Under the pieces are notes generated by a model, which saw only the letters and a program-made list of their open reading frames with translations, was not told the DNA's origin and searched no databases. From an uncultured Lachnospiraceae bacterium (GTDB lineage: Bacteria; Bacillota; Clostridia; Lachnospirales; Lachnospiraceae), in contig OMZG01000001.1 of NCBI GenBank assembly GCA_900315505.1, positions 1 through 64,000 of the forward strand: 64,000 nt of DNA. Reading direction: 5' to 3'. Positions 4,805 through 7,578 of this stretch are shown here, in pieces. Within the stretch, counting starts at the first letter, position 1; each line of letters starts with the position of its first letter. The translations under genes and the position numbers were made by a program.

Positions 4805-5380
4805 TTACAGGTTGTTCTTCAGGAAGACGCGGTCCTTGTCGTCCTGGTCGATGCCGAGGTAGCGCTTTGTGATCTGAAAGGAACTGTGATTGTAGATGTT
4901 CATAAGAAGCACAGGCTGGGCTCCATGCTTCCAGGCATGGTAGCCGAAGGTCTTGCGAAGAGAATGACAGCTGATATTGCCGGTTAGTCCGACAGCGTCA
5001 GCTGCCTTTTTTATTATGCGGTAGGCGGTGGAACGGTGCATCGGGCCGCTGCCGTAGCCCTTGAAAATATAGTCGTCAGGGTCAGGCGCGGGTTCACCTC
5101 TGAGTACAGACCTCAATGCATCACGAAGACTCTTATTGATGGCGATTTCCTGCTCCTTGCCGGTCTTGTGCTCATACAGGCGGATATGATTGCAGACCGA
5201 CTTACTTTTCACATCGTAAATATCGCCCCACTTCAGTGCGAGAATATCGCTTATACGAAGAGCAGTATTGAGCCCTGTTACGATCAGCAGATAGTTGCGC
5301 CTGTGCGGCTCAGTATCCTTATAATAATTCCTGAATTTCTGAAGCTTGTGTCTGTTTCTTATTGGTTCTGTTGTGCTCAT
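4805..5380 (-). CDS. Short tyrosine recombinase (phage-integrase family), candidate flagellar invertase
   Basis: A 191-residue site-specific recombinase with all six catalytic residues of the tyrosine recombinase family: R42 (in TALRISD), K72, H139 and R142 (in HSLRKT), H165 (in YNHSS) and the nucleophile Y174 (in TKRYLGI). It lacks the N-terminal arm-binding domain of larger integrases, as do FimB/FimE-type invertases. No prophage or integrative-element genes are near; instead it lies divergent from csrA and flagellin, with 21-bp inverted repeats in between. AAAGGAGGT precedes the ATG. I infer a role as the invertase of the 5499-5628 segment; a remnant integrase is the alternative. Confidence 0.88.
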   Translation of the reverse strand: MSTTEPIRNRHKLQKFRNYYKDTEPHRRNYLLIVTGLNTALRISDILALKWGDIYDVKSKSVCNHIRLYEHKTGKEQEIAINKSLRDALRSVLRGEPAPDPDDYIFKGYGSGPMHRSTAYRIIKKAADAVGLTGNISCHSLRKTFGYHAWKHGAQPVLLMNIYNHSSFQITKRYLGIDQDDKDRVFLKNNL

Positions 5381-5477
5381 GAAAATACCTCCTTTGTGAA
5401 AATATGCACAAGGGAGATGGTAGCACTAAGCTGTTCTGATGTGCTGAGGTCGGAAAAGTATTTATTCCATAAAAAAG

Positions 5478-5498
5478 CAAGCTGGTATGATCTGTTGC
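5478..5498 (+). repeat. Left inverted repeat of the candidate switch
   Basis: CAA-G-CTGGTATGA-TC-TGTTGC, the inverted partner of 5629-5649 with three mismatches. It lies in the presumed 5' leader of the recombinase gene. Confidence 0.65.
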
Positions 5499-5520
5499 GT
5501 TCTCCTTGCTTACACTTACT

Positions 5521-5546
5521 ATATCGGTCGGGGTTGTCAAAGCTTA
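5521..5546 (-). promoter_or_regulatory. Sigma-D (FliA-type) flagellar promoter on the invertible segment
   Basis: On the minus strand TTAAG (5547-5543) is followed after 15 bp by CCGATAT (5527-5521). This matches the Gram-positive sigma-D pattern TAAA-N15-CCGATAT with one difference in the -35. It reads toward the recombinase at 5380. If the 5499-5628 segment inverted, the promoter would lie at about 5581-5606 on the plus strand and read into csrA (5695) and flagellin (6178). A TTGACA also occurs within the spacer but has no good -10 partner. Confidence 0.6.
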
Positions 5547-5556
5547 ACCCCTTTTT
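5530..5556 (+). terminator. Hairpin with T tract inside the invertible segment
   Basis: GGGGTT (5530-5535) and AACCCC (5546-5551) form a 6-bp GC-rich stem with a 10-nt loop, followed by TTTTT. In this orientation it would stop transcripts running from left to right toward csrA. The stem is short, so termination strength is uncertain. Confidence 0.5.
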
Positions 5557-5628
5557 CTCACTTTTTTTCAAAAAATATTCAAATCAGTGCAATCCCGCTG
5601 CAGCAGGGCGTTTGCGGCCTTTAAGCAT

Positions 5629-5649
5629 GCAACATTTCATACCAGATTG
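5629..5649 (+). repeat. Right inverted repeat of the candidate switch
   Basis: GCAACA-TT-TCATACCAG-A-TTG, the inverted partner of 5478-5498. It overlaps a local hairpin ATGCAACA/TGTTGCAT (5627-5634 and 5648-5655), so the site itself has dyad symmetry, as tyrosine recombinase core sites often do. Confidence 0.65.
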
Positions 5650-5694
5650 TTGCATCTGGCACACAGAGGTGCCGCAGGTTACAAGGAGGTAGGA

Positions 5695-5943
5695 ATGCTT
5701 AAAGTCGGGATGAGGCCTGGCGAGTATATCACGATCGGAGACGATGTGAAGATCGTATTCTCAGGTGGCACAGGGAGACACATACATCTCCTGGTGGAGG
5801 CTCCGCGAGAGAAGAAGATTCTCAGGAGCAGCTACAGCGACAATGATGACAGGGCTCCGTATTACGCAGAGGAATCACTTTCGAAGGAGCATGTGAGGAA
5901 TCTCGTGAGAAGCCAGAAGAGGAAGGAAGCCGCAGGTAACTGA
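5695..5943 (+). CDS. csrA: CsrA-family translational regulator
   Basis: An 82-residue CsrA homolog. CsrA binds GGA-containing hairpins near ribosome binding sites; in flagellated Firmicutes its known target is flagellin mRNA. The core aligns well: MLKVGMRPGEYITIGDDV, a central strand region, then LLVEAPREKKILR, with R44 at the same position as the RNA-binding Arg of E. coli CsrA. The usual R6 is Met here and L4 is Val, so it is divergent, and a basic C-terminal tail extends past the core. The start at 5695 has AAGGAGGT 6 bp upstream. No fliW is visible. Its position directly before flagellin supports the assignment. Confidence 0.85.
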   Translation: MLKVGMRPGEYITIGDDVKIVFSGGTGRHIHLLVEAPREKKILRSSYSDNDDRAPYYAEESLSKEHVRNLVRSQKRKEAAGN

Positions 5944-6097
5944 AAGCCACATACATAGTGGCAGCAGGGAGCGGCAGGGCATTAAGGATACGTATCACCA
6001 CGAGAGTGATGCGTGATGAGGATAATAATGCATCAGGATTCAGGGTCTTATGTGCACTGGGACCGGGAGCCGGATGTTTATTATAAAAAAGCAACTA

Positions 6098-6177
6098 CGG
6101 GAACGGAATTCCCGGGGAGCTGCTGAGAGGCAGCTCAAAACCTATCAATCAACTTTTATTACACGGAGGTAATAATT
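6098..6177 (+). promoter_or_regulatory. Flagellin mRNA leader with two CsrA-site-like motifs
   Basis: A 6-bp hairpin CGGGAA/TTCCCG (6098-6114) presents CGGAA in its loop, the form of a high-affinity CsrA site. A second GGA lies in ACGGAGGT (6163-6170), which is also the flagellin ribosome binding site. Between them is a perfect 7-bp hairpin GAGCTGC/GCAGCTC (6117-6136). The layout matches the B. subtilis hag leader, where CsrA bridges an upstream hairpin and the ribosome binding site. No sigma-D promoter is seen in 5944-6097. Confidence 0.6.
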
Positions 6178-7578
6178 ATGGTAGTACAGCACAACATGCA
6201 GGCAGCCAATGCCAACAGGATGCTTGGCATCACAACAGGAGCTCAGGCCAAGAGCACAGAGAAGCTTTCAAGCGGTTACAAGATCAACCGTGCAGCTGAT
6301 GATGCAGCAGGACTCGCTATTTCCGAGAAGATGAGATCACAGATCCGTGGTCTTGACAGAGCTTCAACAAACGCACAGGACGGTATCTCTGTAGTACAGA
6401 CAGCCGAGGGTGCATTAAACGAAGTTCACTCAATGCTTCAGAGAATGAACGAGCTCGCAACACAGGCAGCGAATGATACTAACACCACTATAGATAGAAG
6501 CCAGATCCAGCTTGAGGTAGATCAGCTTACATCAGAGATCGACAGAGTATCATCCACTACCCAGTTTAATACCCAGAACCTTCTTGACGGGACCTTCCAG
6601 AACAAGAATCTTCAGGTTGGTTCACTCTCAGGACAGAAGATTGAGTTAAACATCGGAAAGATGAGTGCCGAGGGACTGGGACTTGCAGGAAAAGCTGAGG
6701 CGCAGTACTATACTGACACCACTGCAGCTTCACATGGAAAGGTTTCATATAAGGCAGGAGAGGCAGCTCCTACAGTCCCTGGTACTCAACCTAGTAAACC
6801 GGGTGATATTTTTTCAAACTATAAAGTAGGTACGGGTACAGGGGAAGTAACAGCTAGCACAAAGTATATATATGATGGTAACAACACTTGGCATCAGGAC
6901 GGCTTACCAGGTACCACTATTACTCTTAACTTTAAGAGTGGATATGATGCTAAAGTCGGAGCAGAGTTTACATCAGGTACGGATACGACAGCAAATATAA
7001 CGACTCAAAAGGACTTGGAGACTACATCGACACCTGCTGATCTGAATGACCTTAAGATTGCAGAGAGCGATCTTAATAATGCAAAAGCTGATACATATGT
7101 ATACGATTCGACTACTAAAAAGTGGACGGGGAAAGCAACTAACACGGAACTTACCGTAGATACAACCGACATTCCAACCGGGAAGTCCTTAGTTGACGGC
7201 TCTGAAATCACCATAGGCGAAGGGACAAAAGCTCATAACAAAGGCGACAAGATTGAGGACAGCGACAGAGATCTCACCTTAAAGGTCGACTCCTTCGCTA
7301 ATGCCGGAGATGCCATGGATCGTATCCAGAAAGCTATCGACAAAGTCTCTACTCAGCGTGCCCAGCTCGGTGCTGTCCAGAACCGTCTTGAGCACACCAT
7401 CGCTAACCTCGATAACGTATCTGAGAATACTCAGGCTGCTGAGTCACGTATCCGTGATACAGATATGGCTAAGGAAATGGTTACTTACAGCAAGAACAAC
7501 ATCCTTGCTCAGGCAGGACAGTCAATGCTGGCTCAGGCTAACCAGAGTAATCAGGGAGTGCTTTCTCTCCTTCAGTAA
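6178..7578 (+). CDS. hag: Flagellin
   Basis: A 466-residue flagellin, the subunit of the flagellar filament, secreted by the flagellar export apparatus. Conserved D0/D1 helices are present at both ends: MVVQHNMQAANANRMLG and LSSGYKINRAADDAAGLAIS at the start, and LGAVQNRLEHTIANL and NILAQAGQSMLAQANQ at the end, finishing in SLLQ. The middle, about residues 170-375, is a Thr/Asp/Lys-rich surface-exposed region with no family match and with more A/T-rich codons than the ends, as expected of a fast-evolving antigenic part. A strong ACGGAGGT site precedes it. It follows csrA, with no other flagellar gene in the window. Confidence 0.97.
   Translation: MVVQHNMQAANANRMLGITTGAQAKSTEKLSSGYKINRAADDAAGLAISEKMRSQIRGLDRASTNAQDGISVVQTAEGALNEVHSMLQRMNELATQAANDTNTTIDRSQIQLEVDQLTSEIDRVSSTTQFNTQNLLDGTFQNKNLQVGSLSGQKIELNIGKMSAEGLGLAGKAEAQYYTDTTAASHGKVSYKAGEAAPTVPGTQPSKPGDIFSNYKVGTGTGEVTASTKYIYDGNNTWHQDGLPGTTITLNFKSGYDAKVGAEFTSGTDTTANITTQKDLETTSTPADLNDLKIAESDLNNAKADTYVYDSTTKKWTGKATNTELTVDTTDIPTGKSLVDGSEITIGEGTKAHNKGDKIEDSDRDLTLKVDSFANAGDAMDRIQKAIDKVSTQRAQLGAVQNRLEHTIANLDNVSENTQAAESRIRDTDMAKEMVTYSKNNILAQAGQSMLAQANQSNQGVLSLLQ

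Follow-up and report, generated by a model that had tools for sequence, protein, structure and literature searches.

The locus described here raises the question of whether a bacterium can turn one of its flagellins on and off by flipping the promoter in front of it. It lies in the window, by which we mean the whole stretch of DNA analysed: the first 64 kb of contig C34 (OMZG01000001.1, 260 kb) of an uncultured Lachnospiraceae bacterium, whose genome was assembled as 2.05 Mb in 42 contigs. An earlier reading of the sequence (the original prediction) had named a tyrosine recombinase gene, a promoter segment bounded by inverted repeats, csrA and a flagellin gene as parts of a promoter-inversion switch, and each of these elements was confirmed in its place. 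From sequence comparisons, we infer that the locus is very probably a switch for the flagellin, also in the organism of the window: the tyrosine recombinase encoded next to it would flip a 130-bp segment carrying a sigma-D promoter. This interpretation is supported because the linkage of recombinase, sites, promoter, csrA-like gene and flagellin recurs in relatives, the exchange cores of paired sites match, and contigs of a congener (G004) fork at the core.

The promoter segment and its inverted sites

The 130-bp segment between 21-bp inverted repeats was reproduced, its arms (5478–5498 and 5629–5649) pairing at 18 of 21 positions. One further 18/21 pair was found in the 64 kb at a gap of 60–400 bases (59721/60008), which resembles coding sequence, and ten random first-order Markov sequences used as a chance control gave no such pair in nine cases and five in one. 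The sites were refined to 27 bp each: the proximal one (5628–5654, TGCAACA-N13-TGTTGCA) is a perfect dyad with its core at 5638–5644, and the distal one (5473–5499, AAAAGCA-N13-TGTTGCG) has its core at 5483–5489. The core, TGGTATG (reversed in the proximal site), is the same in both, as inversion by a tyrosine recombinase demands of the 6–8 bp overlap in two inverted sites. The three arm mismatches, which had left some doubt about the repeats, are real, but this doubt is weakened because all of them fall outside the 7-bp core. A 12-mer of the repeat arm, CAATCTGGTATG, was also noticed in the leader of another flagellin at locus L067 (upstream of the open reading frame (ORF) 5154–6038), which may be due to chance.

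The sigma-D-type flagellin promoter inside the segment was identified at 5521–5547 on the minus strand by its motif, TTAA-N16-CCGATAT (or, written otherwise, TTAAG-N15-CCGATAT), and by comparison with relatives; as predicted, it points away from csrA and the flagellin, that is, the segment was assembled in the OFF orientation. In the 2.05-Mb genome, the pattern TWAAG-N14-16-CCGATAT has three matches and its reversed-pattern control none; of the other two matches, one is located on contig C31, upstream of another flagellin. The segment promoter also resembles the promoter of another C31 flagellin (AAAAGGGGTTAA followed by CCGATATAGTAAGTGTAA; the likeness to the other flagellin of the same genome can also be written AAAGGGGTTAA...CCGATATAGTAAGTGTAA), and a similar block is present in the congener G008. 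The mismatch in the −35 element, an earlier cause for caution, carries less weight because TTAA stands in place of TAAA in 11 of the 33 two-site loci described below. On the plus strand between 5550 and 6180, no sigma-D-like site with fewer than three mismatches was found, and the statement that 5560–6177 holds no second such site stood. The arrangement is that expected of an inverton, a promoter between inverted repeats with downstream genes that have no other promoter of the sigma-D type, the only type excluded here. By arithmetic from the cores, a flip would place the promoter at 5580–5606 (plus strand), which would leave about 90 bases to the start codon of the csrA-like gene.

The gene of the putative invertase (4805–5380, minus strand, 191 amino acids) is intact and, in the window, lies outside the segment. 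Its product matches PF00589 (6.1e-24) and contains R, K, HxxR, H and Y (in ALRISD, EHKTGK, CHSLRKT, YNHSSF and KRYLGI), which we take to be the catalytic residues, in agreement with the original prediction that all of them are present. Against the NCBIfam models for tyrosine-type DNA invertases it scored 36 and 32 bits, far below the cut-offs of 222 and 221.

Recurrence of the linkage and matched cores in relatives

Searches with the recombinase gave some match at E 1e-3 in 59 of 61 genomes of relatives, mostly distant ones, 16 loci on contigs of GTDB species (8 of the 16 titled Lachnospiraceae), matches at E 1e-20 in 42 of 397 family-level genomes and at E 1e-30 in 49 of 392 order-level genomes, from which 20 regions were fetched. 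A csrA-like gene adjoins the recombinase in 12 of the 16 GTDB-contig loci and, under the same annotation, in 18 of a set of 40 regions, usually with a flagellin. As judged from these sequences, members of the recombinase family often have a csrA-like gene and a flagellin as neighbours, across many genera. This bears on the possibility that the recombinase is part of a mobile element in transit and stands near the flagellin only by chance. Relatives in other families of the order are often multicopy, and 12 of 15 fetched loci from other families had no flagellin match in the fetched DNA, as such an origin might lead one to expect; but the csrA-like gene and flagellin recur beside the recombinase in many genera, none of the annotated ORFs nearby in the window is a mobile-element gene and the sites bracket the promoter, and we give this explanation hardly any credence.

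Upstream of csrA-like genes, 33 pairs of sites were mapped, that of the window included, in 31 genome records (counted without a check for overlap between named and unnamed collections). Loci in which no csrA-like gene or no second site had been mapped were left out (L007, L009–L013, L032, L037, L045, L047, L063–L066, L106, L113, L114, L117, L120, L122, L124, L127–L137 and L139–L142). In 30 of the 33 loci the pair encloses the recombinase gene itself, mostly with 0.65–0.95 kb between the arms. The window, L008 and L062 have a short segment, with the recombinase outside it or not in the sequence at hand, and in L150 and L203 the recombinase is also outside the segment. L203 (1617–3008, from a one-contig genome) has a reverse-transcriptase-like ORF, recognised by eye, between the promoter and the outer site, inside the segment.

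The sites of relatives have the form of the dyad TGYAACA-N12/13-TGTTRCA and occur as inverted pairs. With the core taken as spacer positions 4–10 (20 pairs with 13-base spacers) or 4–9 (13 pairs with 12-base spacers), these central 6–7 bases are the same within each of the 33 pairs (218 of 218 positions), as compared with 153 of 198 positions in the outer spacer (nominal Fisher p 1.6e-16); in the 20 pairs having any mismatch, the core agreed at 133/133 positions and the outer spacer at 75/120. Between loci, the cores vary: the 20 loci with 13-base spacers have 17 distinct cores, and mean identity is 0.49. A control based on half-sites only was tried on 32 loci, the window excluded, of which seven were skipped (one or three sites, or unequal spacers). 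In the 25 loci with exactly two equally spaced sites, the cores were the same in 25/25 cases in inverted register and in 0/25 in direct register. Agreement within pairs together with divergence between loci would be the mark of a tyrosine recombinase overlap in continuing use.

The congener G004 provided evidence of another kind. Its recombinase contig ends in ...AAAAACA AAT TGTAATA, while one of its two csrA contigs (C44), read outward from csrA, ends in ...TGCAACA ATC TGTAATA, each breaking off with the final base of the 7-base core TGTAATA. They presumably stop there because an assembler halts where sequences diverge, as they do in a population of mixed orientation, and we regard this fork as a strong but indirect sign that both orientations coexist.

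Related recombinases beside paired sites approximately 110–150 bases apart were also seen at L129, L131, L206, L211, L213, L214, L216 and L217. At these eight loci, no clear csrA-like or flagellin match was found and no sigma-D-type match in the segment was reported, and they are probably other phase-variable loci. In another family of the order, a related recombinase adjoins a long flagellin-like frame that is preceded by two weak csrA-like matches (L218, G516:C3).

Orientation of the segment and the predicted OFF transcript

Orientation was scored from the best sigma-D match just inside each segment end, reading outward. All 33 two-site loci were OFF, with no ON locus and no tie, the promoter facing the outer site and then a T run. 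Seven further loci outside the 33 pairs (L103, L108, L109, L150, L201, L202 and L203) look OFF as well. ON loci were sought in the 397 family-level genomes with a promoter-to-site pattern, which gave 16 matches in 13 genomes and no ON two-site locus among those assessed (L152, L154 and L155 were left out); the pattern is insensitive, as the recombinase search of the same set had found 42 genomes. Nine of the 16 matches were loci already scored OFF and L150 was a new OFF locus. Three ON candidates were rejected: L143 is without a csrA-like gene, the csrA side of L147 is absent from its sequence, and L158 turned out to be the inner site of L121, which faces csrA and has no good promoter (score 4.0).

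The 20 order-level regions, scored without L204, L212 and L218 (which have a flagellin match), contained the OFF loci L201–L203 and a pair from two species of genus g23, L199 (2449–2520) and L200 (5087–5158), in both of which a sigma-D promoter faces, and would read across, a lone site that lacks a T run. Beyond this site, L199 has a flagellin without an intervening csrA-like gene, and the L200 contig ends after the site. Neither an inverted partner site of at least 62% identity nor a csrA-like gene was found in the DNA fetched for these two, which are likely to be locked-ON derivatives. The search for the opposite orientation in related genomes, proposed with the original prediction, yielded these two and none of the 33 two-site loci. 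The distribution suggests that the populations behind the assemblies are strongly biased to OFF, by the enzyme or by selection.

A terminator-like hairpin overlapping the distal site is predicted at 5471–5511 on the minus strand (stem AAGCAAG/CTTGCTT, then T6, −6.3 kcal/mol), where leftward transcription in the OFF state would meet it. The ten bases after the stem contain on average 7.0 T in the OFF direction (outer site) versus 2.6 in the ON direction (inner site), and the T content was higher after the outer site in 33/33 loci (4 versus 2 in the window). The original prediction had the OFF promoter drive the recombinase. This part did not stand up well, since the predicted hairpin lies between the two, and would leave the promoter mostly unable to reach the recombinase; the T run after the outer site is found in relatives too. 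In the mechanism that we propose, the recombinase would exchange strands within the core and thereby invert the segment. In the OFF state, transcription from the sigma-D promoter would terminate at the hairpin overlapping the outer site, and csrA and the flagellin would be without a sigma-D promoter. In the ON state, transcription would pass the inner site, where a T run is absent, and continue into the csrA-like gene and the flagellin.

The same hairpins could also be read to mean that the sites are mainly transcription terminators or regulatory structures, that the outward promoter gives a short RNA and that inversion is rare or absent. Such a reading would fit the OFF state of all 33 two-site loci and the T run after the distal site, yet it leaves unexplained the match of the cores in the inverted (25/25) and not the direct register (0/25), the linked recombinase and the ends of the G004 contigs, and it appears very unlikely to us.

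Several findings weigh against the flagellin switch as we propose it. No two-site locus is ON, so that the two states were never observed together, and the window contig crosses the segment unbroken. The distal site of the window is half decayed, with mismatches at 5 of 14 half-site positions, four of the five in the outer half. The promoter is poorly matched in L062 (score 3.5, the inward match scoring equal), L043, L125 and L116, and a sigma-D match reads inward from the distal site too, exact in L036 and with one mismatch in L039. With one mismatch allowed, the motif matches four times in the window, as compared with 1.6 expected, only the segment's promoter being exact; the motif is not rare at this stringency and, therefore, its genomic context carries weight. 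L116 (G345:C61), from a genome with two further recombinase matches, has a recombinase with an internal stop and a weakened promoter, and by its sequence is a decaying copy, and the decayed members L117 and L120 have a single site each. The core statistic uses pairs found partly by similarity (the half-site control is free of that), and its p value is nominal because the loci are related, L034 and L046 having the same site sequences. As for G004, the adjacency of the two contigs is unproven by synteny, and no synteny with the window around the locus was found; the other csrA contig, C21, has no site at its end, and most other contig ends near such loci are away from any site.

Some of these points would agree with a frozen element, in which the family switches elsewhere and the half-lost outer site locks the window segment OFF, with its flagellin silent. 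The outer half-site (5473–5479) matches at 3 of 7 bases, the contig is unbroken and decayed members (L116, L117 and L120) exist. Yet the core TGGTATG is the same in both sites and the recombinase ORF is intact; G004 has a similarly A-rich outer half (AAAAACA), yet its contigs end at the core, and the congener G002 keeps a short pair in which one site is imperfect and the core the same. We consider freezing unlikely and retain the working flagellin switch as the preferred reading.

The putatively switched operon and known systems

The gene taken for csrA is present (5695–5943, plus strand, 82 amino acids), but it codes for a divergent CsrA-like paralog, whose homologs adjoin the recombinase homologs in relatives. 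Its product reaches the PF02599 cut-off (49.9 bits) and misses the NCBIfam csrA equivalog cut-offs, and the canonical csrA sits elsewhere, adjoining fliW on contig C31 of the same genome. Residue 6 of CsrA, an Arg with a role in RNA binding, is conserved in the canonical protein and is other than Arg in the csrA-like rows of the alignment. The flagellin (6178–7578, plus strand, 466 amino acids, PF00669 and PF00700) belongs to the six Flagellin_N matches of the genome, which include one that is FlgL-like by eye, and the relatives tested (15/15) have 2 to 7 such matches each.

CsrA-type proteins target hairpins whose loop carries NGGA, and ribosome sites of the form ANGGA. In the flagellin leader (plus strand), the hairpin CGGGAACGGAATTCCCG at 6098–6114 is CsrA-site-like by eye, with NGGA in its loop, and the ribosome-binding site ACACGGAGG (6161–6169) is itself ANGGA. 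The best hairpin around ANGGA holds NGGA in the loop in 18 of 24 leaders scanned; in the window, the scan picked the ribosome site. Between the csrA-like gene and the flagellin, upstream of the NGGA-loop hairpin, an element of the form GGTAATAA-stem-CCTAGG loop-stem-TTATTATA was found in 21 aligned loci (L033:5589–5630 and 20 more). It folds as a hairpin alone in each locus with differing stem sequences, and its predicted counterpart in the window is a hairpin at 6022–6084 on the plus strand. Rfam gave no match in the leaders scanned, and the element is possibly a new RNA element.

A less supported step of the mechanism would be that the CsrA-like protein binds hairpins in the leader of its own flagellin, and perhaps in those of other flagellins, giving an fljBA-like output; its role as an fljA-like repressor is offered as a proposal only. 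Tentatively, and with somewhat less than even confidence, the family can be pictured as the counterpart of the Salmonella antigen switch in commensal clostridia: in most members the recombinase would invert its own gene together with a sigma-D promoter, the sites would double as OFF terminators, a CsrA-like repressor would exchange flagellins in the ON state, and the switch would nearly always be OFF in nature. Flagellins of gut Lachnospiraceae-type bacteria are immune targets. A recurring switch nearly always assembled OFF would explain how some flagellins could stay silent, and it makes the timing and place of flagellin production testable. The matched core, moreover, is a simple sequence signature by which such switches could be recognised and their orientation scored straight from metagenome reads.

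Literature searches returned no title or abstract on such a switch; most subscription papers fall outside their coverage and an earlier description is possible. In Escherichia coli, a small tyrosine recombinase (FimB or FimE) acts beside the short invertible promoter segment fimS, which controls fimbriae. The present locus has the same kind of enzyme and segment, while the controlled organelle and the sites differ. CsrA-FliW control of flagellin in Bacillus subtilis involves a CsrA-type hairpin and a ribosome-site motif in the flagellin leader, as seen here, but in our case the divergent CsrA-like paralog belongs to the switched operon and the canonical csrA and fliW lie elsewhere in the genome. 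The B. subtilis system is cited in PMC3720852.

Invertible control of flagella is already known from Salmonella (PMC9368917) and Clostridioides difficile (PMC5386303). In C. difficile, according to PMC5386303, the RecV-dependent segment lies in the flgB leader, is promoterless in reporter tests and affects the early flgB operon at a stage after initiation. Compared by segment and repeats, our locus differs in that the segment carries a promoter and acts on a single flagellin operon, and in that the repeats are not alike. The original prediction, which drew this parallel, rightly placed the promoter inside the segment, but the C. difficile switch is hardly the nearest parallel. In Salmonella, as described in PMC9368917, an invertible promoter drives an alternative flagellin together with a regulator of another flagellin. 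The enzyme there is the serine recombinase Hin, which acts on hix sites. Like fljBA, the operon described here joins a flagellin with a putative regulator behind a probably invertible promoter (regulation of another flagellin being a proposal here), and in 30/33 loci the recombinase is inside the segment. Unlike it, the recombinase is of the tyrosine type (PF00589), the sites are TGYAACA dyads rather than hix, a CsrA-like gene placed before the flagellin replaces fljA, and the recombinase of the window stands outside the segment. In its logic, the proposed switch resembles Salmonella Hin/fljBA more than the C. difficile system.

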